Source: Deltaproteobacteria bacterium | GTDB taxonomy: Bacteria; Bdellovibrionota; UBA2394 | Assembly: GCA_017302715.1 (NCBI GenBank) | Contig: JAFLCD010000004.1 | Span: 62,001 to 126,000 of the forward strand | Direction: 5' to 3' | Length of the DNA stretch: 64,000 nucleotides | Shown here: piece by piece, positions 3,900 to 57,302 of the stretch | Layout of the letters: every line of letters begins with the position of its first letter | How positions within the stretch are numbered: the first letter of the stretch is position 1 | The notes under the pieces: generated by a model | Database searches by the model: none | The model's input: the letters and a program-made list of their open reading frames with translations, nothing else | What the model was told of the DNA's origin: nothing | Made by a program: the position numbers and the translations under genes

Positions 3900-4517
3900 T
3901 TGATCAGAAATGTGGGTGCGAGCAGTGTTTCTGCAGGAACCTTGACCGTGAATGGTTCGATTCAGAATTCTCCGCTTAATATCAGCGGAGGAATTGTAAA
4001 CGGCACCGGCACTTTAGGATCTGTCGAGGTTGCAAGTGGAGGCACTCTCACTCCCGGAAACTCTGGCGTCGGAACCTTAGTGGCAGGGGATGTCACTTTT
4101 GATTCAGGTTCTACTTTTTCTTTTCAAGTCGCCCCTTCAAGTACTCCTCTTCTGTCTGTCACAAACGCAGCTACTTTGGGTGGAACTTTATCAATAACGC
4201 AAAACTCCGGATCCTATACTTCTCCAAGTCAGTATACTTTTTTAACAGCGGGCAGTATCAGCGGCACCTTTGGCACGATCACCGTGAATGCTTTGCCGAA
4301 TTTTAATTATCGTTTCGAAAACAGCGCAACGACTCTTTCGATTATCTTTGAAGAAAAAAGTCCCGCATCCGATAACACCTCAAGCCCCTCACCGGGAGGA
4401 TGGGGGTGTGCACTCCAGGCATCTCAAGAAAATTTCAATTTCGTTTTTTTGATTTATAGTTCGGTTTTATTTTTCTTTTTACTATTCTTAATGAGAAGAA
4501 CATTTAAAAAAGACTAA
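3900..4517 (+). pseudogene. Truncated autotransporter-type passenger with Cys-type C-terminal sorting signal
   Basis: The frame begins inside a beta-helix repeat with no signal peptide; an in-frame stop at 3870-3872 precedes a doubtful TTG start. Residues 10-60 (SAGTLTVNGS... GGTLTPGNSGVGTL) are typical of autotransporter-associated beta-strand repeats, which normally sit just before an autotransporter beta-barrel. No barrel follows. Instead the chain ends with a Ser/Pro linker, a GGWGC motif, a hydrophobic helix and RRTFKK. That tripartite Gly-Cys / helix / basic layout matches the class of C-terminal sorting signals processed by intramembrane peptidases (MYXO-CTERM or JDVT-CTERM type). Most likely the 3' remnant of a larger surface protein that lost its 5' end next to the ars genes. 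Confidence 0.55.
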
Positions 4518-4573: not shown

Positions 4574-6304
4574 TCAATAAGCGATGCTTGGTTTGCCAAC
4601 GCGACTGAGAATAAACGAACAAGAAGATCCTTGAATTAAATTTTTACCTTCCTTGTCGATAAGGTCGCCTTTCGAATTAAATGCGAAAACTGCCGAGGGA
4701 GTTTTTGTAAGCCAGCTTTCTTCCACTGTCGCTCGTGACTCTTCAAGTGATTGTGGGTGTGGTCTGGCTTTTAGAACCACTGCATTCTTTCCGAATTGAT
4801 CCGTGATAATTTGTCCTTCAAGGCGGATGCTCATTTTATTATGGACGTCGAGATGGTCTTCCACTTCGGTGACGTACTTACGTAAAAAGAAATCGGCATC
4901 TCGTACGATTTTTTGAACTGTCTCTTCATCCATGACATCTCTCAGTTTTTCAAGGAGTGTGCTTGGAGTAGATAATTGCGAAGAAGAATCCCAATATTTA
5001 TCTATTATAAAAGTTCGACCTTTCTTAACATTTTTTATTCGGAACTTCTCAATTGTTTTAGCCGTCCCAAGTGAAGGTAGAGTGACGAGATCGGCTGCAT
5101 GCATACCAAAAATTGAGTCGAAATCTGAGGCCTTCTCGTCAATAACGAAATATTGATCCTCTGTCGAAGCCTCATGAAAGGCGATAGTCGATTGAGGACT
5201 GACAGTAAGGACTCCTCCGTCCGCCCATACTCTTCTCAGAGTCGAATCGGTTGCATCTTCTCCGTTTTTTATCAATGTAGCAGGTCCCTTAAGCTTAAGA
5301 GTGACAACATCTATCTTAGATTTCGCCGCATTAAAGATTGAACTTTGATAGTGTAGTTCTGCTCTGAATAAATGACTTAAATAAGTTTCAGAATCCGTAG
5401 GCTCAGTTTTGTCGGATTCATAAGCAAAATAAATAGGAGTTCGTTGGATTCTTTCTTCATTTTTTGTGACTTCCACTACTATCACCTGACTAGCCTCATC
5501 CGGGTTCGACAAAAAATAATCTTCTCGAGCACTCGCGGGTATTTTCATCGAGTAAGGAATCCAAATTTCAACTGAATCTAATGGATTGAAACGATCCTCC
5601 TTATCCATTTTCGCCGCATACAGTAGTCTGTGAGTTTCCTTTAAAGTGCCAACTCGAATCTTTGCTTGAGCAGAAGGACTTTTATTTCCTTTCCATGGAT
5701 GTTCCCCCCTATTTTCTAAAACTCGAATCGGTCTCGATTGATCGATACTGAGTTTTGCTATCGTTTCTTTTGGAACTCCAAAGAGTTGAAGGTCCCTGAT
5801 CAATTTATCAAGATTTATACTAGGATGGTCGACTTCAATAACGCCCTGATAATTTGCCTCATCTCTTAGGATGTTAGTGGGATACATATCACGTCGATCT
5901 CGGTATTCCAGATGCACAGACGCAGATAAAAAATATTGGTTGTTATTGACATACAGAGTGGATGGGTCGATTTCCAGTCCTACAACATAAAACCTATCTG
6001 GATTTCCTTGTTGGTAAGCTTCACCCTGCATCCGTAAATATTTTCCATCGAATGAAGACGTTTGAGCTGCAACGCGAGCGTTGCGAAAGGGGTTAAAGGA
6101 TGTCGCCTCCAGATAACTCCAGGTTTGGAGAGCTGCTTGCTTCTTACCGACAACATCCAATCTAATATTGTTGCCAAAATGACTAGGATCCTCTGAAAAA
6201 AGAGGAGTGATATCCCATAAGGCAGCAAAAGTATTCTGAGCAGCGACGACTGCGATAAGTCCAAAAAAAATACAGAAAAGTGTAAGTTGGCGTAAATGTG
6301 CCAT
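4574..6304 (-). CDS. Exported protein of unknown family, 576 residues
   Basis: I do not recognise this protein. It has a clear signal peptide (hydrophobic core LFCIFFGLIAVVAA, cleavage probably after the A-x-A-like NTFA near residue 28) and no later membrane segment, so it should be periplasmic or secreted. The mature part is rich in short beta-type segments and charged residues, with only one Cys (in SSCSFILS near the C-terminus) and no repeat or catalytic motif that I can name. It is a single-gene unit: the next genes on both sides point away or are on the other strand. The downstream 56 bp carries a weak 5-bp hairpin only. Confidence 0.75.
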   Translation of the reverse strand: MAHLRQLTLFCIFFGLIAVVAAQNTFAALWDITPLFSEDPSHFGNNIRLDVVGKKQAALQTWSYLEATSFNPFRNARVAAQTSSFDGKYLRMQGEAYQQGNPDRFYVVGLEIDPSTLYVNNNQYFLSASVHLEYRDRRDMYPTNILRDEANYQGVIEVDHPSINLDKLIRDLQLFGVPKETIAKLSIDQSRPIRVLENRGEHPWKGNKSPSAQAKIRVGTLKETHRLLYAAKMDKEDRFNPLDSVEIWIPYSMKIPASAREDYFLSNPDEASQVIVVEVTKNEERIQRTPIYFAYESDKTEPTDSETYLSHLFRAELHYQSSIFNAAKSKIDVVTLKLKGPATLIKNGEDATDSTLRRVWADGGVLTVSPQSTIAFHEASTEDQYFVIDEKASDFDSIFGMHAADLVTLPSLGTAKTIEKFRIKNVKKGRTFIIDKYWDSSSQLSTPSTLLEKLRDVMDEETVQKIVRDADFFLRKYVTEVEDHLDVHNKMSIRLEGQIITDQFGKNAVVLKARPHPQSLEESRATVEESWLTKTPSAVFAFNSKGDLIDKEGKNLIQGSSCSFILSRVGKPSIAY

Positions 6305-7993: not shown

Positions 7994-8502
7994 CTGACGA
8001 CTACTGCTGACGAATTAATTAGTCGTTTTAATCTTAAGGCCCATCCTGAGGGCGGATTTTTTGCTGAGACCTATCGAGCAAAAGATAAAATTTCTTCGCG
8101 AGCTCTTGCAGGTAAATATTCTGGCGAGCGAAGCTATTCAACAGGCATTTATTTTTTACTTACAAAAGGTACAAAATCACATCTCCATCGATTGGCCTCT
8201 GACGAGATGTGGCATTTTTATTTGGGCGGACCTCTGACACTCGTTCAAATTTCACCTCAAGGCGAAATGAAGAAAATAATTTTAGGATCTAATGTAAAAA
8301 ATGATCAATGCCTCCAATATGTGGTTCCTGCAGGACATTGGTTTGGAGCTTATCCAAATACTGAAACAGAATATTCTTTTGTAGGATGCACAGTGCACCA
8401 GGTTTTGATTTTACTGATTTTGAAATGGGAAAAAGAAACGAGCTTTTAACGAAATTTCCCGAAGCATCCGCAGAGATTCAATTCTTAACAATAAAAGATT
8501 AG
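7994..8502 (+). pseudogene. DUF985 cupin-family protein, frameshifted and without a standard start
   Basis: The frame from 7994 reads TADELISRFNLKAHPEGGFF..., the typical N-terminus of the DUF985 sugar-binding-like cupins, but the codons at the expected start are ATT or CTG. The cupin core follows (HLHRLASDEMWHFYLGGPL, VVPAGHWFGAY, SFVGCTV). After the GTG for Val at 8393-8395 the frame goes wrong: reading from 8395 in the next frame gives APGFDFTDFEMGKRNELL, the proper family continuation, to a stop at 8500-8502. One missing G (gtg-gca reduced to gtgca) explains this. Either the gene is decaying or the assembly has an error here. An ATG at 8192 would give only the second half. Confidence 0.75.
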
Positions 8503-8522
8503 TTTTTTGGAGGAATGTAATT

Positions 8523-9074
8523 ATGAATAAAATTTTTATCGCGATTATTTTTTCTGTAATCCCACTTTTGTTGTCAGCTGAAGAATGCCGTCTTACATCG
8601 CAACAGATTCAAGATAATCTGAAATTAGATTGGAAGGAATTTGATCAGACTCAAAATATGGGGCACCGATTGTTAGCGGCAAAAGGCTGTTATCTTGAAG
8701 CGGCGCTCTTGACAGATAGTTATAATTTACAGAATCGAGATTTAATAGATCCATCAAAGCTTAGGATTTTATATTTTCACGCCGGTCAAATGTACGCTTA
8801 CGCAGAACTCAATGAGGTCGCGGTCTCGCGAATGATGAATTCGCTGAATCCAAAAGAAGATATGAATCCTGAACTCAATTGGAATGATTATGTTCAGGCA
8901 TCTGTGGCCTTTTTAAGAAATGATCGAGAGTCGCTTGAAATATTTCAAAAAAAATTAGCTGCAGGAAAAGCAAGTGAGGGTAACGATTTGAATCTGAGCG
9001 TTGTAAATAATTTTCTTAAATGTTTAGGAAAGCCTTATTCCTGGCCATACGGTCGATCAGGCGATTGTAAATAA
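8523..9074 (+). CDS. Small exported protein of unknown function
   Basis: The 183-residue product carries a signal peptide (FIAIIFSVIPLLLSA, cleavage near AEEC at about 19-20; the Cys is too late for a clean lipobox). The mature part is mainly alpha-helical with a tetratricopeptide-like look (RLLAAKGCYLEAALLTDSY, LRILYFHAGQMYAYAELNEV) but no full TPR consensus. Start ATG follows TTTGGAGG with 11 nt spacing. It lies 20 bp after the damaged cupin and 153 bp before the HEAT operon. Function unknown. Confidence 0.75.
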   Translation: MNKIFIAIIFSVIPLLLSAEECRLTSQQIQDNLKLDWKEFDQTQNMGHRLLAAKGCYLEAALLTDSYNLQNRDLIDPSKLRILYFHAGQMYAYAELNEVAVSRMMNSLNPKEDMNPELNWNDYVQASVAFLRNDRESLEIFQKKLAAGKASEGNDLNLSVVNNFLKCLGKPYSWPYGRSGDCK

Positions 9075-9227: not shown

Positions 9228-10508
9228 ATGAATTTAGTCTGTAAATCACTTCTCAGTTTTTTATTCATCGCTATTTTTAGCGACCAATTGGAAGCGCAAA
9301 GTCGACCTTCAGCGGGAAAATTAATCACGGCTTTAGATGAGCAAGATCCCGCCGTTCAGCTTTATATTTCGCGCTCACTTTCGAGATTGGGCGATAAAGC
9401 TCTTCCTGCACTAGTCGCAGGATTAGATAATCCAGATCAGGCCACTCAGTGGGCCATTGCTGTTGCGATCTCCGACTACGAAGAGAAAGCCTTCAGTTCG
9501 CTCACTCCACTTTTAGATAGTTCAAATCCTTTTTTAAAAAGAGGAGCCATCATGTGTTTTGGTGCGATTGGCAAAAAAGCAGATTCTTTTGTTCCTAAGA
9601 TTTTGCCCAATCTTCAAAATCCAAATTTGACGATTAAAGCTGCGTCTATTTTTGCGCTGGGGCAGATGGGAGAAAAATCTGCGCCTGCAATTCCTACGTT
9701 AATTGAAGAAATAAAAAATCCGATTCGAGGAATGCAATCTCCTGACGATGTTCCTCTTGCTGGAGTTGCCGTTGCCGCATTGGGTGCGATAGGTGAGCCC
9801 GCGATCATTCCTCTCTGTATCGCTCTCAATGATAAAAGTAATGATGCGCTTAGAGAAAATGCTCTCGGCGCTTTTTCTGAAATGGGAGAAAAAGCCCTGC
9901 CTGCTTTGCCGAATATTATTGAAGCGATGAATGATAAAGTTTTTGTAGTTCGCATGCGGGCGATTTTTACGTTGGGAGATATTGGCGAAAAAGCTGCTGA
10001 AACTATTCCTCAAATTCGAAAAATTTTAATGGAAGCGATTGGAAGCAATAAATCTGCTCGTGATGATATTGAAGAAGCCGCCACTTATGCATTAAGTCAA
10101 ATGGGAGAATCTGGAGTCGCACCGCTTCGCGAAGCGCTTAAGATCGCTAAGGATTTAGAAAAAATATATTTGCTCCGTGCGCTTGGAGAAATAGGTCCAA
10201 AGGCCGCAGTCTCCGTTCCAGATCTTATTCAAGAACTGAATAATCCAGACTTTCGAATTTTTTATGCGGCTACTTTTGCTCTAGGAGAAATCGGCGAGGC
10301 TGCTTCACCTGCAGTTCCAAAATTGATTGAGATGATGAAGGATAATCAAAGAACTTGGGGTGCGGTTGAAGCGCTCGGAAACATAGGGCCGAAAGCTTCG
10401 GCAGTATTACCACGTCTTAAATTTTTGCTTTCAATAGGTGAAGATGGACAGATGAAAAAACATATTTTAGAGGCGATTAAAAAAATCTCTGCAGGAGACG
10501 TGAAATGA
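9228..10508 (+). CDS. Exported HEAT-repeat protein, first gene of a three-gene operon
   Basis: Periplasmic protein built almost wholly of HEAT / PBS-lyase-type repeats, 426 residues. A signal peptide (LLSFLFIAIFSDQLEA) is followed by about nine repeats of roughly 38 residues with the 'A..AL..IG..A...IP.L...L..' pattern, for example IFALGQMGEKSAPAIPTLIE, TLGDIGEKAAETIPQI and ALGEIGPKAAVSVPDLIQEL. Such solenoids bind other proteins, so it is likely a scaffold. GGAG precedes the ATG. Its stop overlaps the start of the next gene as ATGA (10505-10508), which implies translational coupling with two coiled-coil partners. Repeats are very regular, unlike PBS lyases with catalytic residues. The partner and role are unknown. 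Confidence 0.88.
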   Translation: MNLVCKSLLSFLFIAIFSDQLEAQSRPSAGKLITALDEQDPAVQLYISRSLSRLGDKALPALVAGLDNPDQATQWAIAVAISDYEEKAFSSLTPLLDSSNPFLKRGAIMCFGAIGKKADSFVPKILPNLQNPNLTIKAASIFALGQMGEKSAPAIPTLIEEIKNPIRGMQSPDDVPLAGVAVAALGAIGEPAIIPLCIALNDKSNDALRENALGAFSEMGEKALPALPNIIEAMNDKVFVVRMRAIFTLGDIGEKAAETIPQIRKILMEAIGSNKSARDDIEEAATYALSQMGESGVAPLREALKIAKDLEKIYLLRALGEIGPKAAVSVPDLIQELNNPDFRIFYAATFALGEIGEAASPAVPKLIEMMKDNQRTWGAVEALGNIGPKASAVLPRLKFLLSIGEDGQMKKHILEAIKKISAGDVK

Positions 10509-11620
10509 AAAAATTTATTTTGTTTATTCTCGCAGCAGTATTTTATTTCTCAGATAGTTCTTACGCAGGAGTCAAAAGAGAAGATCTTTATAATGTTCAA
10601 CAGTCCGTGAAAGCCCGCGAAGAATCCTGGATCGCAAAGTGGGATCATCTCGATCACGGCACGCTCAAGAAAGACAGAAAAACTCAGCTGGGCGATGAGA
10701 TCACGGATTACAAAACAGAAATTAAAAATCTAACGACTTTGTTGATCCAATTGCAGGCTCAGCAGCCAGCGCTCTTTGCTGCGCAAAAGGAAGCCAATTT
10801 TCGTCTGTCGGAATTTTTGTCGAAAGAGAGGGCAGATACCGCTGAAAAAAGCGCGATGAGAGAAGAATTAAAGTATGTCGCTGTCATGGGAATACAGGTG
10901 GGCACAGTTGTTATCCTTCTTGAGTCCATCACAGAACTTTCGGAGGCCGCGATTCCTCGTTTACTCGAAGAGCTCAGATGTTTTCTTTATTTTCAACAAG
11001 ATGCCGTTCGCTCAGAAATTCTTTCGCTTCAATTAGAACTTGAAAAAGCGAAACAGGCGAATCAGAAGAATGAAATCAATCGAATTGAATCTCGAATCGA
11101 AGATTTAAAAGACATTTTTATAAGCGATGAAATTATTGATGGAATTAAAGATAATTCTTTAAAAGAAAAATTGCGTGGAGTTTTGAAAGCAAAGCCACAG
11201 GGTAAAACAAAAGAAGAGTTGCGAATCATCGAAGTTTATTCCCACGAAAAGCCTAGTCTTGAACAATTGCAAAGTATGAATCCTGTGGTGCGCTCTTTTA
11301 TTAAAGCGATTCAAGAGACAAATACTGCAAACACTGAAGCCGTAAAAGATCTCAAAACGATTAAAGAAATTTTGAATGATCTTCAGGATCAACTTTTGCA
11401 TCGGTTTATTGAACTGAAAGAGAAACTTGGACCTTATCGTATGAACGGAGATTTCTCTCCAAATGGAGAAGGAGCTAAACTGCAAAAAGCAAAAGCAGAT
11501 GCGGAACGAGCTTACTTAAATTGCACGGAGGAAATTTATTGGGCGAATTATCGATTAAGAGAGCTACCTAACTTAATCAGTTATGAAGGCCAATGGTGGG
11601 AGTATTGGAATAAAAAATGA
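10505..11620 (+). CDS. Exported coiled-coil protein, second gene of the operon
   Basis: The 371-residue product begins with a signal peptide (FILFILAAVFYFSDSSYA) and is then mostly long amphipathic helices. Coiled-coil-like segments are seen at about residues 65-110, 175-215 (LQLELEKAKQANQKNEINRI) and 260-305. A hydrophobic stretch near residue 125-140 (YVAVMGIQVGTVVILLESI) could be a membrane segment or a buried helix. I know no family. It starts inside the stop of the HEAT gene and ends inside the start of the third gene (ATGA overlaps on both sides), so the three proteins are made together and probably act together in the periplasm. Confidence 0.8.
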   Translation: MKKFILFILAAVFYFSDSSYAGVKREDLYNVQQSVKAREESWIAKWDHLDHGTLKKDRKTQLGDEITDYKTEIKNLTTLLIQLQAQQPALFAAQKEANFRLSEFLSKERADTAEKSAMREELKYVAVMGIQVGTVVILLESITELSEAAIPRLLEELRCFLYFQQDAVRSEILSLQLELEKAKQANQKNEINRIESRIEDLKDIFISDEIIDGIKDNSLKEKLRGVLKAKPQGKTKEELRIIEVYSHEKPSLEQLQSMNPVVRSFIKAIQETNTANTEAVKDLKTIKEILNDLQDQLLHRFIELKEKLGPYRMNGDFSPNGEGAKLQKAKADAERAYLNCTEEIYWANYRLRELPNLISYEGQWWEYWNKK

Positions 11621-13650
11621 AGACGCTATTTTTAACACTTTTTACAAATTTTATTTTTATTTCTAGTTTGAGTGCGGGAGGCGGAGACGCCGACTATACT
11701 GCTGAAATCAACGGCCTTAGAGATCGAAGCCGAATTTATATTGAAGAAAGTTCAAAGCTTCTTCGTGATATGTATTTTGCTGAGCAAGGTCTCGATAATC
11801 TTCGCTACGAAGGTGAACTTTTAAAACAAAGTTTAAGCAATCATCCTTCTGTCATCGGAATTTCAAATGATAAAGATGTGCAAGATCTTCAGAAAATCAT
11901 TCACGAATCTGTGTATGTAAATCGCAACTTAAATATTGTGCGAGACGCTTTAGCGCGAATCAATAAGTCTCAAGTTCAATTGGCATCAACGAATCAAGTT
12001 GAACTGCAGGCCACTATGAATTCTACACTTTCGAATTGGGAAAATAATTTGCGTAAATTAGATAGGGATTTATCAGAGCAAGCTCGTTTGTTCGAGGAAG
12101 CTTCGCAAGCTTGGCTTTTATTGCGCCACGATAAGCATGATGCAGAAAATTTTCAGCAAATTCGATCGCGTCTTATTCAAGTAGAAGGCGAAAGTTCTTT
12201 GCGTTTTTGGAGAATTCAGCTTGCGCATTTAAAATTCGAAGCCATTCGCGCGGCGCGAGATCTAGACGATATGAAGACGGCGTGGCAGTTGGCGAAGTCT
12301 TATCAAATTTTTATGTCGCTGGCACCATTAGGCGCAATGGACGCATTGTCGCTGAAGTCTCATCAAGAGGCGGTGAATGAATTTACAAAAGAGCATCAGG
12401 TAGAATTTGATAAATTAATCGAGCAGCTTCGAAAATTCAGTAAATCTGCAATGAGAGATGAGTTAGAAAATTTTCCAAAAATTCAAATCGCTTTATCTTT
12501 AAGTTATTTGAATGCAGATGCGCCTGTAGAGAAAAAAGAGGAAGCTAAACCAGATCCCGTTAAGCCAGAGCCAGTTAAACCCGAGCCAGTTCCTCCGAAT
12601 GAGCCAAACGCTAATCCTCCAGCCACTGAGCGTAGTTTTGAAGGTGGCACAGCAAACGTTTCAGCCGGAGATAAAGTAGTTGAAGTGAAGCATGACGTAG
12701 CTGGGCCAGAAGATGCTGTAGGCGACGGGAAGCACTGGGATTTTTATTTTGATTCGAATGGCGATGGAAATTTTGCTGACGGAGTCAGTGCTCCTGGTGG
12801 AGAAAAATTTAAGGAGCAAGTAGAGGGTGGTTTAAAAGATTCTGTTCACTCTACTTTGGGTGGAGGAGGCGGCAATGGAGGAAATGGCAGAGACGGAAAA
12901 GTAGATACCGGAGCTCAAGGCCAAGCTGAAAAACTTCGCGACGCGATGGATAGAACGAGGCCGAATGTGAAAGGCGCTCAGCAATCGAAAGAATTTAATC
13001 GCTTGCAGGATGAAGTCGATCGCTTTGCACGTATCGTAGGGTCGATGGACGCGCAGAACGGTGAAAAATTAAAATCTGTAAAATCGCTTATTGGCGAATG
13101 CAAAGATTTGCAACAAAAAATATTTGATACAAGTTATCAGCTGCCCTCACTCATCGAGCTATCAGAAGAATTAATAACTCGCTCAAAAGCTTTCCAAGAT
13201 CCGAGTTCTCCTGAGTCCAAACAAAAAGCAAAAGATCTTGAGCAGTTTAAAAAAGATATCGAAAAAATTGATGAGTATATCAATTTGGGCCCGACCCTCG
13301 TTGGTGAGGTGGGAACTTTTGTCATTGAAACGCCTGCTATTTTGATTCCGAAAGTGGGTCATTTAATTGAAATAGCTATTCAGCAAGTTGATAAAGTTTT
13401 GAAGGCCAATGAAGGTAACGAAATTCTTAAAGAATTTACGGGCGTCTCACCTACGGAGGCCATGCGAAAGGGTTTAGAATATTTTCGTGGGCAATTAAAA
13501 AAGACGAAAGGCGAAAAAGAAAAGGAAGAAATCGAAAAGGAGATGGAATATCTTCATAGGTCTTTAGAAAATATCAAAAAGATTTCAGATATTTTAAAAA
13601 TCAAAACCCCCGAACTCGACGAGCTTTTGAAGAATTGGAAGAAGCCTTAA
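11617..13650 (+). CDS. Exported multidomain coiled-coil protein with Pro-rich linker, third gene of the operon
   Basis: 677 residues with a signal peptide (LFLTLFTNFIFISSLSA). Layout: helical/coiled-coil part to about residue 300; a repeat linker PVKPEPVKPEPVPP near 315-330; a small domain with FDSNGDGNFADG (about 380-390), which looks like a Ca-binding D-x-N-x-D-G loop; a Gly/Asn-rich linker (GGGGGNGGNGRDG); and a long charged helical C-terminal half (about 450-677) with KGEKEKEEIEKEMEYLHRS. No enzymatic motif is visible. ATGA overlap with the preceding gene ties it to the HEAT protein. It has the look of a periplasm-spanning or extracellular structural protein, but this is inference. Confidence 0.8.
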   Translation: MKTLFLTLFTNFIFISSLSAGGGDADYTAEINGLRDRSRIYIEESSKLLRDMYFAEQGLDNLRYEGELLKQSLSNHPSVIGISNDKDVQDLQKIIHESVYVNRNLNIVRDALARINKSQVQLASTNQVELQATMNSTLSNWENNLRKLDRDLSEQARLFEEASQAWLLLRHDKHDAENFQQIRSRLIQVEGESSLRFWRIQLAHLKFEAIRAARDLDDMKTAWQLAKSYQIFMSLAPLGAMDALSLKSHQEAVNEFTKEHQVEFDKLIEQLRKFSKSAMRDELENFPKIQIALSLSYLNADAPVEKKEEAKPDPVKPEPVKPEPVPPNEPNANPPATERSFEGGTANVSAGDKVVEVKHDVAGPEDAVGDGKHWDFYFDSNGDGNFADGVSAPGGEKFKEQVEGGLKDSVHSTLGGGGGNGGNGRDGKVDTGAQGQAEKLRDAMDRTRPNVKGAQQSKEFNRLQDEVDRFARIVGSMDAQNGEKLKSVKSLIGECKDLQQKIFDTSYQLPSLIELSEELITRSKAFQDPSSPESKQKAKDLEQFKKDIEKIDEYINLGPTLVGEVGTFVIETPAILIPKVGHLIEIAIQQVDKVLKANEGNEILKEFTGVSPTEAMRKGLEYFRGQLKKTKGEKEKEEIEKEMEYLHRSLENIKKISDILKIKTPELDELLKNWKKP

Positions 13651-13663
13651 AAGCTAGCCCCCA

Positions 13664-13713
13664 TTGACCTCATTTTAATTCTGTTTTATATTTAACTTAT
13701 TGGTTAATTAACC
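13664..13713 (+). promoter_or_regulatory. Promoter and palindromic operator of the ArsR-type gene
   Basis: TTGACC (13664-13669), a 17-bp spacer and TATATT (13687-13692) form a good sigma70-type promoter with a start near 13699. Directly at the predicted start lies a perfect 12-bp palindrome ggttaattaacc (13702-13713), 14 bp upstream of the ArsR start codon. ArsR-family dimers usually repress their own promoter by binding such a symmetrical site; that it is the operator is inferred from position. Confidence 0.55.
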
Positions 13714-39240: not shown

Positions 39241-39381
39241 CTAGATAACTTTGTAATCGTTGACGCAGTGTGCTACAAGTTTTTCTAAATAGGGTTTTAA
39301 TCACAAAAAATGAAGTTTAGTAGGCCCCGGTTCTGAGGAGGGCTTCGAACTCTTATTTAGTTTTTGGGGGCGTTTAAAAAA

Positions 39382-42300
39382 ATGAAGACTCCTTTGGTTC
39401 GCGCCATTTGTTGGATCCAAGTTTATGTCATGGCGATCACTCCGGCACTCTATGCCACGACCGAGGAATCGCGATCTGCGCCACCTTCCTCTACCCAATC
39501 TTCCGACCAAGAATATCGAAATGCGCGTGAAGATTTAGCGAGAAAGATCGAAGAGCTTAGAGCGGCGGATAGGGCAAATCCAGCAACTGATTCTGCAATG
39601 AATTCGTTAGAACTCGCGATCAATGAATTAGAAAAATCGGAAGAAGGGCAACTTCCTTCTAGACCTTTCAAAGATAAACTTTATTTAACGGGACAAAGTC
39701 TCGCAGATTTAAAAACCGGAAAAACTTATAACTTAAGTGAAATTAATTTTCAGGCTCCCGTTTTTAAGGCGGCTAATTTTGATAAAGATGTTCAGCCTGC
39801 AATTGATCCAGTGACGGGAAGTTTATGTCTTGAGCTTTCGCGAAAAGGCGAAGTTATCGCGAGACACAGCATTCAGATTCCAAATTTTTCTCCCATTTCG
39901 TTTTACCGAGATCGAGAAGTTTTGATTGCTCTCGATAAGACTGGAAAGCGAGTGGCTCTTGATATGGCTTACGCTTTCTATCAGGGATTTCGATCTCCCT
40001 TGCCCATGATTGAAATGTCTAAAGTAGATTTGCAAGGAACTCAGAATGCCGAAATCAAACTTCTCAATCGGGGAATCAAACCCATTGAAGGGCAAGACAA
40101 CGAAAGAGTTTTTAAAGCTGGAGATGTTGTTGTTACAGACTCGGCTAATCGCTTGCTAAGTGAGCCAGAAAGTCTTTCTGATTTAAAAATGATGATCACT
40201 GAAATTGAAGGCGCTGTTGCCTTAGTAGCTTTCAATTTGAATCCAGGTCTTGTTCCAAAAAAGGTAGCAGAAAGCATTTCAAGTTTGATGGGTAATCCCA
40301 CTTTAGGAGCTCTTCAGACGGATGTTTTGCAACAGATGAGCGCTTTAGAGCGAGATGCGTTTTTAGCTATTCCGGGTACTGCTGTTCAGAAGTTAGTTTC
40401 ACGTTCAAAAATAAATGCAGTGGGTTCTGCCAGGACTCCCGACGAGTTTTCTTTAGAAGAATGGCGAGAGTCGTTTAATAAGTATCAAGCTCAAGCTCGC
40501 CATCAATTGGGAGATGCCAAAAGAAAATTAACAGATGAAAAGAGAGCTCTCTTATTTGAAGGATTAGAGGGAGAAGATTTTTCTAAAGTCTATCGAGATT
40601 TAGAAAATGATCGCATTGAAGATATCACTCCCAAGCAGGCAATCATCTATCGCATTTTAAATTCCAAAGCGATGCGCACTTTGGGTTATGTCACGGCGGT
40701 AGGAGCTACGGCTTGGGCTACGGATCATTTTGCTTTTGGTGGGCAGGCCGCCGCATGGTCGGTGCATATGCTTAACGAATTTTTGCATGCTCATTTTGAA
40801 GTTTTAACGGATGCCACTTATCGAGTAACTCTTTTTAAAAGTTCAGTCGCTCTGCTTTCGTTGATCGGTCTCTATTATGGAGTTGGAGCTTTAACCTCGA
40901 AATATCTCAATCAACCTTGGTCAGCCGTTAAAGGAGTTTGTGCTTTTAGTTTTAGAGTTTACGGCGCCTTAATGGTTCCATTTTTTCATATTTTAGCAAA
41001 AGCGGCGCGACAACCAAACTTAATGAAAACTTGGCAGCAAGGAGTGCCCTTAGGAACTCGCATCGATCCGAGCTCTGAAATAGGTCGAAAAGCTGAAATT
41101 ACCGAAACGGTAAGACTTGGGGTGAATAATCCTTTTTCCTTTGGAAAAAATCGCGAGCAAGCTTTGACCCAAAATTTAAAAGCTTTAGAGGCTGTGGCTA
41201 AAGAATCTACAAGTCTTCGCTCGGTTGCATGGACGATCTCTCTCATTGCTGCAAGTCAAGAAGCTGGAATTGATCCAGTGACTCTCGAAACTTTGCTAAG
41301 GGAAGGTGTAAGTGCAAAAAATCTTCCTGACTTGCAGGAAAGATTAAAAAATCCTGAATTTAGAAAGAATTGGTATCGAACGGCCAATGAACTTCAATTT
41401 CGTTTGAAAAAAATTCAAATGGATAGAGGTTTGGATTTTGAAAAATTAAAGCCCGTAGATATTGCGGGTTTTTATTCGGAAGCTTTTTTACTTGCACGTG
41501 AAATTCGAAATGACTCTCGCTTTGATAGTAATGTTCGCGATTTAAACATTTTATGGAAAAATTTTGGTGCATTGTCTCGCTCGGGGTTTGCGAATTTCGG
41601 AATCGAAGAATATAACTTTTTGCGATTCGCCGAGCCTGGTGACTTTGTTGTAGGCCAAGGTGCAAAGCAATTCATCACGGATTATTTTTTGGGCGTTTTG
41701 CAAATGGGATTGATTGGAGCGCGCGCTGACCTAAGGGATCCGTCAGCATTAGCAGCAAGAGAGGGTAGTTTTCTTTACACAAACCCTGGTCACTTTGCAG
41801 ATATGGGAGATCAGGTTCGAATTTACGCTCTGAATGCTCCCGCTCGAATGGGTTTGGTTTATCAAAATGAACTTCCTATTATTGAAAATCGATATGATCC
41901 AATTGAACAAATCGTTTTACAACCACAAAAAACCAGCGATGGAAAAATTAAATCAGAAAGTTTAGTTAAAGAAGAAAAGGAAGCTTTCACTCCTGCTGCC
42001 ATGACTTGGGGAAAAGGCGTTTCTAATTTTAAAGAAACTAATTTAGGTAATATTTGGATTAAATCATTACTTCGAACAGTCAAAACAGTTCAGGTTAGTT
42101 TTGTGATGATCATCGGAGCAAGAATGCTGATGGCTCATCAAGATTTTTCAGATGCAACGTTAGCATTTATCTACACAATGATTTGGGCAAATTGGCAGTT
42201 TGGTTGGTTGTGGGATCCAATCACTCGTGGAAATCAAATTTACGGTGAAAAATTTGAAGAACCTGCAGCAAAATTTGCAGAAGCTAAAATAAATTTAGGT

Positions 42301-42975
42301 CGGGCTTTGAGAGCATCGGATCGCGAAGCAACTTTAGAAGCTTATAGAAATTTGCGTGAACTATATCGATCAGTGGATGTGAGTGCTCCGGCCTCGATTG
42401 ATAATCTTTTGAGTGATGATAACTTTAAAAAATTAGAAGCTGCATTAACTCAGATAGATGCAAACTCTGTAAATCAAAGTATTAAGGCGAGCTCTGAACT
42501 TCGCTGGGCGATTTTATCGGGTGATCCTGCAAAAATTGAACAAGCTCGAGAAAAACTTTTGGAAGTTTATAAACAATCTAATGCTGCTGAGGATCTACTT
42601 CGCTTAGATGCGACTACGCTCTTAGCGCATTCTTTAAAGAAACCTCCTTTTGCAACGGTTGGTAATTCTTTGATTGAATGGATGACCACGATGTTTGGAG
42701 CCGTCTTAACGACTTATTGGGCGACATCGTTGTCGGTTCTTACTTTTAGTGAGAACGTGCCTTGGGGTGAGAAAATTTTAGAAGCCACAGCTGTTTCTGC
42801 ATTTTTATATGGTGGATTCTATGGTTTGCAAAAATTTATTAATTCAAGAGTTTGGACAAAGGAAGGTCGAGAGAAAGAGTTGAACGAAACAAATTTTCAG
42901 CAGATTAAAATTTCTGCAGATGGAAAATGGACCTGCGCCAAAGTTGCTAGAGCCGTGACAGCCTTCGCTCATTAA
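39382..42975 (+). CDS. Very large orphan membrane protein (1197 residues)
   Basis: I do not recognise this protein. From the ATG at 39382, with tgggggcg about 12 nt upstream, it starts with a hydrophobic signal or anchor (VRAICWIQVYVMAITPALYA). Residues 25-430 are soluble, helical and charged. A central hydrophobic block (about 440-560, FKSSVALLSLIGLYYGVGAL and AFSFRVYGALMVPFFHIL) and a C-terminal block (about 900-950 and 1115-1165) should cross the membrane. A TTG at 39364 would add six residues encoded by the ribosome site. No catalytic motif or repeat is obvious. It is a single-gene unit followed by an OsmC gene. Perhaps a lineage-specific envelope protein. Confidence 0.75.
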   Translation: MKTPLVRAICWIQVYVMAITPALYATTEESRSAPPSSTQSSDQEYRNAREDLARKIEELRAADRANPATDSAMNSLELAINELEKSEEGQLPSRPFKDKLYLTGQSLADLKTGKTYNLSEINFQAPVFKAANFDKDVQPAIDPVTGSLCLELSRKGEVIARHSIQIPNFSPISFYRDREVLIALDKTGKRVALDMAYAFYQGFRSPLPMIEMSKVDLQGTQNAEIKLLNRGIKPIEGQDNERVFKAGDVVVTDSANRLLSEPESLSDLKMMITEIEGAVALVAFNLNPGLVPKKVAESISSLMGNPTLGALQTDVLQQMSALERDAFLAIPGTAVQKLVSRSKINAVGSARTPDEFSLEEWRESFNKYQAQARHQLGDAKRKLTDEKRALLFEGLEGEDFSKVYRDLENDRIEDITPKQAIIYRILNSKAMRTLGYVTAVGATAWATDHFAFGGQAAAWSVHMLNEFLHAHFEVLTDATYRVTLFKSSVALLSLIGLYYGVGALTSKYLNQPWSAVKGVCAFSFRVYGALMVPFFHILAKAARQPNLMKTWQQGVPLGTRIDPSSEIGRKAEITETVRLGVNNPFSFGKNREQALTQNLKALEAVAKESTSLRSVAWTISLIAASQEAGIDPVTLETLLREGVSAKNLPDLQERLKNPEFRKNWYRTANELQFRLKKIQMDRGLDFEKLKPVDIAGFYSEAFLLAREIRNDSRFDSNVRDLNILWKNFGALSRSGFANFGIEEYNFLRFAEPGDFVVGQGAKQFITDYFLGVLQMGLIGARADLRDPSALAAREGSFLYTNPGHFADMGDQVRIYALNAPARMGLVYQNELPIIENRYDPIEQIVLQPQKTSDGKIKSESLVKEEKEAFTPAAMTWGKGVSNFKETNLGNIWIKSLLRTVKTVQVSFVMIIGARMLMAHQDFSDATLAFIYTMIWANWQFGWLWDPITRGNQIYGEKFEEPAAKFAEAKINLGRALRASDREATLEAYRNLRELYRSVDVSAPASIDNLLSDDNFKKLEAALTQIDANSVNQSIKASSELRWAILSGDPAKIEQAREKLLEVYKQSNAAEDLLRLDATTLLAHSLKKPPFATVGNSLIEWMTTMFGAVLTTYWATSLSVLTFSENVPWGEKILEATAVSAFLYGGFYGLQKFINSRVWTKEGREKELNETNFQQIKISADGKWTCAKVARAVTAFAH

Positions 42976-48603: not shown

Positions 48604-50340
48604 ATGATTTTTTCTGTAGCCATTTTTATCATTAGCTCTTTTAACCCGGCTATTTGCATTGCTCCTCAAGTGACTTGGGTTTCAATGGTGTATTCAGGAG
48701 TAGATGCGGCTCAAGTAGCCGCTGACAAAGAAGACCAAGAGGAATTTTTAAAACTTAAAAATAATCTAAAAAATCCTTTCGATGAAATTGAATTAGCCTC
48801 GATTAGTGCTTTAGGGGATTTAGGAGAAAGAGCGAGTATTGAATTAAAAAATTCGATAATCCAAACATTGAAAGAAGTGGTTAATGGTAATGCAACTTTA
48901 GAGATGAGAGGACGAGCCATTCGGTCACTTGAGTCCATTGGCGAGAAGGCAAGTCCAGAGCAGCGGGCTGACATCATTATGTTTTTCTTCGATCTCATAA
49001 AAAATGCGTCTGAGTTTCAGATAAAAAAAACAGCTATCGATGGCCTTGGATTTGTAAGAGTAAATGCAAATCATGAAGAAGCGAATTCAATCGTTCGAAA
49101 TTTATTGGATACTTTTAAAAATGAAGAATCCGCTGAAACGAAAAATTCAATACTCTGGACGCTGAGAGAAGTGAGTATTCACGTAAGTCCAAATCTCAGA
49201 GATGAAGTTATTCAAATTTTATTCGGCATTATCAAAAACAATCTTCCAGCTCAATTCACCAGCACGGCAGCGACTTGCCTTGGAGTTTTAGGCGCTAAAT
49301 CGAAGCCCGAATTAAAGGACGAAGTTTTTGAAGTTTTAGAAAATATAATTCAGGGTAAATCTTCTTCTTTTGTGCGTCAGGATTCAGCACTAAGAAGTCT
49401 GAGAGATCTCGAAGTGAATGCGAATTTACAACTTAGAAATAAAATTGTTCAGGTTTTACTTAATGCCTCAGCTAGCCATTCCGCCGTGGGCATTTATCAG
49501 GATCTCGCGATCCAACTCATTATAGAAATTTTAGAAAGGCAGCCCACCCTTTTTGATATCTTGCGAGACCCCGAAGTTCAGAGAAAGCTAGTAAAAATGC
49601 TAGAGACGAAAGGTAATTTAAAAATGTTTTCAATTGTTAAAGTAATTGAAGACGATAGAAGGATTCACGAAGATTTTATTTTAAATCCCCCAACGTCGGA
49701 GTCCAAGGCAAAGGTTTATGAGTCTTTAGCCACATACGCTTTTTCATTAGATAAAAATGAACAGATTTTTTTAGTAGAAAATTTTCTTTCTAAAAATAAA
49801 TTTCCACATTTGCAGGCTTATGAAAGATGGGGCGAATCAAGCTATGATTTGTTGTCTCAATATGTTGAGAAGAGTGAGAATAAGGAATTTTTATTTGCAA
49901 ATAAACAGGTTGCCTCAGATATTTTTACTTTTGCTAATAATCGAAATGAATTGGAAAGCCTGGAAAATGCGGTGGGCGAAAGAGGTTTTTGGCAAATCCT
50001 AGGGCAGCTAGATTCTTTTTCCGCTGAAAACTTTGATTTTATTTTTGAAAAGACAAAATTTATTTTTGAAGATTCCACAAATGCAAAAAATAAAAAAATC
50101 TCAGCCAATGCTTTAAATGCTCTTCTTAAAATTTCTTTGAATAATCTTGAGCAAGAGAAAGTAAAAGAACTCAAAGAATTCGTTGTGGCTCTTTATAAAA
50201 ATGAAAAACAATCCACTGGTTTAGAAGAAAAACTGGCTCAATTTTTTTCGAGCTTGATGAATTATAATTCTGAGTGGAAAGAAGAATTAAGCCCTCTTTG
50301 GCAAGAAGCCGTGGATACGGTAAAGGCTAAACATCCTTAA
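48604..50340 (+). CDS. Exported helical-repeat (HEAT-like) protein
   Basis: 578 residues. The N-terminus is a signal peptide or anchor (IFSVAIFIISSFNPAICIA). Residues 40-310 hold about six degenerate repeats of roughly 48-50 residues of HEAT/armadillo type, for example LASISALGDLGERASIELKNSI, AIRSLESIGEKASPEQRADII and LGVLGAKSKPELKDEVFEVL. The C-terminal part (about 330-575) is helical with no clear repeat. Likely a periplasmic protein-binding scaffold. It differs from the 38-residue repeats of the HEAT protein at 9228, so the two are not close paralogues. An aagga lies 13 nt before the ATG. It is a single-gene unit of unknown role. Confidence 0.75.
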   Translation: MIFSVAIFIISSFNPAICIAPQVTWVSMVYSGVDAAQVAADKEDQEEFLKLKNNLKNPFDEIELASISALGDLGERASIELKNSIIQTLKEVVNGNATLEMRGRAIRSLESIGEKASPEQRADIIMFFFDLIKNASEFQIKKTAIDGLGFVRVNANHEEANSIVRNLLDTFKNEESAETKNSILWTLREVSIHVSPNLRDEVIQILFGIIKNNLPAQFTSTAATCLGVLGAKSKPELKDEVFEVLENIIQGKSSSFVRQDSALRSLRDLEVNANLQLRNKIVQVLLNASASHSAVGIYQDLAIQLIIEILERQPTLFDILRDPEVQRKLVKMLETKGNLKMFSIVKVIEDDRRIHEDFILNPPTSESKAKVYESLATYAFSLDKNEQIFLVENFLSKNKFPHLQAYERWGESSYDLLSQYVEKSENKEFLFANKQVASDIFTFANNRNELESLENAVGERGFWQILGQLDSFSAENFDFIFEKTKFIFEDSTNAKNKKISANALNALLKISLNNLEQEKVKELKEFVVALYKNEKQSTGLEEKLAQFFSSLMNYNSEWKEELSPLWQEAVDTVKAKHP

Positions 50341-56271: not shown

Positions 56272-57249
56272 TTACCAACCTAAGACGTACGCAAACACAA
56301 GCGGAGCGACGATCGAAGCGTCGGATTCGATAATGAACTTTGGAGTTTCGACTCCCAGTTTGCCCCAAGTAATTTTTTCGTTTGGAACTGCGCCAGAATA
56401 TGAACCATAGCTCGTCGTTGAATCAGAGATTTGGCAAAAGTAGGCCCAAAGTGGAACGTCGGTTCGTTTTAAATCTTGATGAAGAAGCGGAACTACACAA
56501 ATAGGAAAATCGCCTGCGATTCCGCCACCAATTTGAAAAAATCCAATTTGAGATTTTGGTGCGACTTCTCCATACCATTTGCAAAGCTCTGTCATATATT
56601 CAATGCCGCTACGAACGGTGTGTACATTTTTGATCTCACCTGAAATGCAATAGCTCGCAAAAATATTTCCTAAAGTAGAATCTTCCCAACCTGGAACAAA
56701 AATCGGCAGATTTTTTTCGGCTGCGGCAAGAAGCCATGAATTTTTAGGATCAATCTGATAGGATGGAACCAATTTTCCTTCTCTTAAAATTTTGTAAAAA
56801 AATTCGTGTGGAAAAAGTGGCTTATTATTTTTATCGGCATCCTTCCAGGCCTCGAACATAAATTTTTCGATGCGTCGAATGGCCTCTTCTTCGGGAATGC
56901 AAGTGTCGGTCACTCGATTGAGATGGCGATTTAAAAGCTTGAGTTCATCTTGGGCGGTGAGATCTCGGTAATTCGGAACTCGAACATAATGCTCATGAGC
57001 GACCAAATTAAAAACATCTTCTTCAAGATTGGCGCCGGTGCAACAAATGCCATGAACTTTTCCCTGACGAATCATTTCGGCGAGCGAGAGGCCAAGTTCG
57101 GCCGAGCTCATCGCTCCCGCCAAAGTTACAAACATTTTTCCGTTCTTCTGAAGAAGATCGTTGTAACTTTCGGCTGCATCGACCAAAGTAGCAGAGTTGA
57201 AATGGCGAAAATGATGTTTTATAAATTGACTGATAGGGCCTTTGCTCAT
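56272..57249 (-). CDS. Deoxyhypusine synthase-family protein
   Basis: 325-residue enzyme of the deoxyhypusine synthase fold, which uses NAD and spermidine. The catalytic lysine is kept (Lys297 in ITWGKLGVE), as are the NAD-site motifs TLAGAMSSAELGLSLAEMI, GICCTGANLEEDVF and GFFQIGGGIAGDFP. Bacteria lack the eIF5A substrate of the eukaryotic enzyme; related bacterial proteins make homospermidine or have unknown polyamine roles, and that is the likelier function here. The ATG at 57249 is chosen over an upstream extension with no family match. A pair of convergent stops with the exported-protein gene lies downstream. Confidence 0.88.
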   Translation of the reverse strand: MSKGPISQFIKHHFRHFNSATLVDAAESYNDLLQKNGKMFVTLAGAMSSAELGLSLAEMIRQGKVHGICCTGANLEEDVFNLVAHEHYVRVPNYRDLTAQDELKLLNRHLNRVTDTCIPEEEAIRRIEKFMFEAWKDADKNNKPLFPHEFFYKILREGKLVPSYQIDPKNSWLLAAAEKNLPIFVPGWEDSTLGNIFASYCISGEIKNVHTVRSGIEYMTELCKWYGEVAPKSQIGFFQIGGGIAGDFPICVVPLLHQDLKRTDVPLWAYFCQISDSTTSYGSYSGAVPNEKITWGKLGVETPKFIIESDASIVAPLVFAYVLGW

Positions 57250-57302
57250 ACCCAAATTTATAGAAATAGCAGGGCCGACTAACAAGATTTATTTGGTGAA
57301 TA

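Follow-up and report, generated by a model that had tools for sequence, protein, structure and literature searches.

A probable lineage-specific operon for exported proteins in Bdellovibrionota joins the gene of a HEAT-repeat solenoid to those of two orphan helical proteins and may encode a complex

The window analysed here, a 64,000 nucleotide stretch of a Bdellovibrionota genome, contains three consecutive genes on the forward strand. They encode a HEAT-repeat protein and two further products designated ORF2 and ORF3 (Table 1). The original prediction described them as genes for exported proteins that overlap twice as ATGA, and the coordinates, strand, product lengths and both overlaps were confirmed. 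The signal peptides that it assigned to all three products are likewise seen, in that each N-terminus passes a simple n/h/c-region rule, which is not equivalent to SignalP or another trained predictor. In the HEAT protein the LEA preceding QS leaves a non-ideal residue at position -3. The frames are long and intact, and Shine-Dalgarno-like sites are present. Because a promoter-like site lies between ORF3 and the downstream ArsR gene, the transcription unit is suggested to end at ORF3. There is good support for assigning the three genes to a single operon that encodes exported proteins.

Table 1. Features of the three-gene locus, in positions of the window.
Feature	Position	Strand	Basis
HEAT protein, exported, 426 aa, about 12 HEAT units, alphaRep-like	9228..10508	+	Profile and PDB sequence matches
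HEAT protein signal-peptide-like N-terminus, MNLVCKSLLSFLFIAIFSDQLEA	9228..9296	+	Sequence, simple rule
HEAT gene stop/ORF2 start overlap, ATGA	10505..10508	+	HEAT stop TGA inside
ORF2, exported helical protein, 371 aa, orphan	10505..11620	+	Sequence searches, model
ORF2 signal-peptide-like N-terminus, MKKFILFILAAVFYFSDSSYA	10505..10567	+	Sequence, simple rule
ORF2 hydrophobic stretch, residues 125-143, VAVMGIQVGTVVILLESIT	10877..10933	+	Kyte-Doolittle mean 1.88
ORF2 stop/ORF3 start overlap, ATGA	11617..11620	+	ORF2 stop inside
ORF3, exported two-part helical protein, 677 aa, orphan	11617..13650	+	Sequence searches, model
ORF3 signal-peptide-like N-terminus, MKTLFLTLFTNFIFISSLSA	11617..11676	+	Sequence, simple rule
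ORF3 Pro-rich linker joining two helical parts	12520..12631	+	Sequence
ORF3 Ca-loop-like DSNGDGNFADG, single, in linker, residues 379-389	12751..12783	+	Motif scan
ORF3 Gly-rich stretch, GGGGGNGGNGRDG	12858..12898	+	Sequence
Promoter-like site (10/12), downstream of ORF3 and upstream of ArsR gene	13664..13692	+	Consensus match only

The HEAT protein is matched in six stretches by HEAT_2 (PF13646) with an E-value of 6.5e-35 (119.7 bits vs a curated cut-off of 27.7). Manual division of the sequence from residue 27 to the C-terminus yields approximately 12 units of 30-38 aa each, so that the nine repeats counted previously are an undercount. The PDB sequence matches include designed alphaRep binders (up to 1.5e-24) and a synthetic alphaRep-like fusion (5e-32). 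The alphaRep fold is a general protein-binding surface. An identity as a phycobilin lyase or NblB was rejected, the scores against the NCBIfam equivalog models (69.1, 45.2 and 41.2 bits) lying far below the respective cut-offs of 300, 330 and 220. The protein resembles the HEAT_2, HEAT_PBS (PF03130) and alphaRep-type solenoids in the strong match across its whole mature length, and differs from them in being exported and in sharing an operon with two helical orphans. The window encodes one more exported HEAT protein (48604-50340, +; HEAT_2 1.2e-07); it has no coupled helical partners and only weak matches in members of the family.

ORF2 and ORF3 have no homology to each other, and neither is matched significantly by sequence in Pfam, NCBIfam, PHROG or PDB. 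The single-sequence model of mature ORF2 is helical, with long helices and no strands, but unreliable (pLDDT 54, pTM 0.40). A Foldseek search with this low-confidence model returned nothing at E <= 0.001; the best match (E 0.07) was to a generic coiled coil. The possible membrane segment claimed for ORF2 corresponds to its hydrophobic stretch, which is present. The N-terminal flank of the stretch is the more basic, and a cleaved signal peptide combined with a single transmembrane helix is therefore a poor fit. A packed or membrane-associating helix is, from these flank charges, at least as likely.

The Pro-rich and Gly-rich linkers described for the 677-residue ORF3 product are both present, as is the Ca-loop-like DSNGDGNFADG, which occurs once. 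This loop is the sole D-x-[DN]-x-[DN]-G among the 46 window proteins scanned, and a single copy in a disordered linker does not make a defined calcium domain. The best internal hydrophobic stretch of ORF3 (residues 560-578, mean 1.33) is weaker than that of ORF2. Mature ORF3 is also modelled as helical without strands, again unreliably (pLDDT 39, pTM 0.21). The Pro/Glu/Lys-rich linker recalls the periplasm-spanning proteins of the TolA/TonB type, and one weak match is itself TonB/TolA-like. Unlike those proteins, ORF3 carries a signal peptide that looks cleavable, and it lacks both a clear membrane anchor and a TonB/TolA domain match.

Among 97 relatives ORF2 matches only itself, and ORF3 matches itself with one additional weak match. 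Neither has a credible relative in the 368 further phylum genomes that were searched (369 counting their own), among them four genera from the same family, and the gene-order search proposed along with the original prediction never found the three genes together there. The larger phylum searches scored the best 3 to 7 candidates per genome, and a very divergent relative could escape them. The C-terminal part of ORF3 searched alone gave only chance coiled-coil or low-complexity matches. Pattern scans, which detect close relatives only, confirmed no match to ORF2 in GTDB genome contigs and none to ORF2 or ORF3 in viral contigs. Borderline matches had E-values of about 1e-4 to 0.1 per genome and were identified where possible, a few (L175-L178) being left out. 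Those identified were a coiled-coil protein with a membrane anchor, present in two genomes of one genus, as well as a histidine kinase, a TonB-like Pro-rich protein, a transposase-like protein and a Wzz-like protein that falls to E 0.058 when aligned alone. None of these is a real relative.

Of 58 other genomes, 15 contain partial matches to the HEAT protein, which are generic, as consensus HEAT repeats would lead one to expect. At the 13 HEAT loci inspected with their flanks, neither ORF2 nor ORF3 was found by sequence as a neighbour, and inspection by eye found no ORF2- or ORF3-like partners beside the other HEAT genes of the same genome. The synteny of the flanking genes, followed through the MscS gene, is not conserved in four family members (completeness 76-93%, none of the same genus). 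Strain-specific and genus-wide sets look the same when compared with family members of other genera only, and the set could be genus-wide.

Several features of the locus are ordinary for its surroundings. Overlaps of 4 bp occur in 5 of the 26 codirectional neighbour pairs of the window, three of them outside the three-gene set, and the signal-peptide rule is satisfied by 14 of the 46 window genes; neither overlap nor export is thus unusual here. The fixed stoichiometry previously read from the ATGA overlaps does not follow from so common an arrangement. Gene coupling supports co-expression and says little on stoichiometry. The three genes look coding, in that their codon adaptation, measured against the remainder of the window, is 0.75, 0.73 and 0.71 vs a mean of 0.717, an index that alone discriminates poorly since some alternative frames also reach 0.71. 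Their GC content is 0.39-0.43 vs 0.41. Native codon usage and GC content give no sign of recent foreign origin, and the codon usage does not show expression.

The signal-peptide-like genes cluster on the forward strand (7458, 8523, 9228, 10505 and 11617). The exported 183-aa protein encoded upstream at 8523 has no relative in the four family members. The same is true of an exported 576-aa protein (4574-6304, -), which also has no significant Pfam match. Since these nearby exported genes are orphans as well, orphan status is ordinary in the neighbourhood. Just upstream of gene 8523 is a cupin-like gene (7994-8520, +), presumably of the DUF985 type, that is apparently split by a frameshift near 8390, representing either a pseudogene or an assembly error. 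An open frame at 3900-4517 (+) has autotransporter-passenger-like repeat text and a C-terminal hydrophobic helix with a basic tail; it has no clear start and is possibly a fragment. Elsewhere in the window, a 1203-aa protein (39364-42975, +) has no significant Pfam match. A deoxyhypusine-synthase-like protein (56272-57285, -) shares 67-76% identity with its best 80 homologues, which come from Verrucomicrobia, Acidobacteria, Bacteroidota and others, a conservation unusual for a divergent genome.

That the locus is a lineage-specific operon of exported proteins is very probable. Beyond this, we propose that the three genes are transcribed together and that their products would cross the inner membrane by Sec. 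In the periplasm the concave face of the HEAT solenoid may bind one or both of the helical co-products, acting as a scaffold or a holding chaperone. ORF3 would be a flexible tether, its two helical parts joined by a disordered Pro/Gly-rich linker of about 110-130 residues. We place the probability of this explanation as a whole at roughly 0.4. The predicted direct binding of the HEAT protein to ORF2 or ORF3 is a tentative element of it, and a putative physical complex is plausible. We consider it unlikely that the three products build a periplasmic or surface complex that is confined to the genus and has no described precedent, with a HEAT scaffold and two long helical proteins, one of them Pro/Gly-tethered.

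About equally likely as the binding interpretation is that the three products, although exported and co-transcribed, work independently of one another and that their genes are adjacent only through shared regulation. The background of the window is in keeping with this, as signal-peptide-like genes are frequent and clustered on the forward strand, 4-bp overlaps are common and the exported products of 8523 and 4574 are similarly orphans. Set against it are the two successive overlaps that hold the three genes together, and the fact that a binding solenoid and two helical rods in a tightly overlapping unit are a natural set of partners.

A far less probable alternative is that the products make up a secreted pore-former or attack factor of several components, functioning in the manner of the ClyA-like alpha-pore-forming toxins and with the HEAT protein as its chaperone. 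In the ClyA-like systems helical proteins occur in sets of one, two or three components (PMC6162564). The present operon is similar to the two- and three-component toxins in encoding exported proteins that are mostly helical and bear hydrophobic patches, one stretch each in ORF2 and ORF3, and the low-confidence ORF2 model has long helices. It differs from them in that no sequence or fold match was obtained (the ORF2 fold being that of the low-confidence model) and in that a HEAT protein is included; we know of no ClyA-like system that has one. Neither ORF2 nor ORF3 matched an alpha-pore-forming Pfam family up to E = 10 or a PDB sequence, the best Foldseek match of ORF2 reflects a generic coiled coil only, and the hydrophobic patch of ORF3 is weak. 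The check for a five-helix bundle with a membrane-inserting element drew on the low-confidence models of the two proteins. Equally improbable is that the three genes are unconstrained or decaying orphan frames with little function; ORF2 and ORF3 have no relatives on which to test selection and a frameshifted gene lies just upstream, but the frames are long and unbroken, their codon usage is native, Shine-Dalgarno-like sites are present and the overlaps are tight, all of which argues otherwise.

The preferred reading, an exported operon with a HEAT solenoid that may bind its helical co-products, bears on the undescribed envelope complex of the original prediction. The operon of exported proteins is well supported and the envelope complex stays a candidate. 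A conserved machine is not supported by the comparisons, because no relatives of ORF2 and ORF3 could be detected across the phylum and there is consequently no conserved gene order in its favour. As judged from these searches, the three-gene set is lineage-specific and does not point to a general new envelope machine. The literature searched contains no description of a HEAT-based periplasmic machine with such a composition. No general question is opened, as nothing outside its own genome carries the set in the collections searched. If the proposed binding is correct, the locus would add one more lineage-specific exported complex, useful chiefly to illustrate the emergence of fast-evolving sets of exported genes in a phylum rich in predators.
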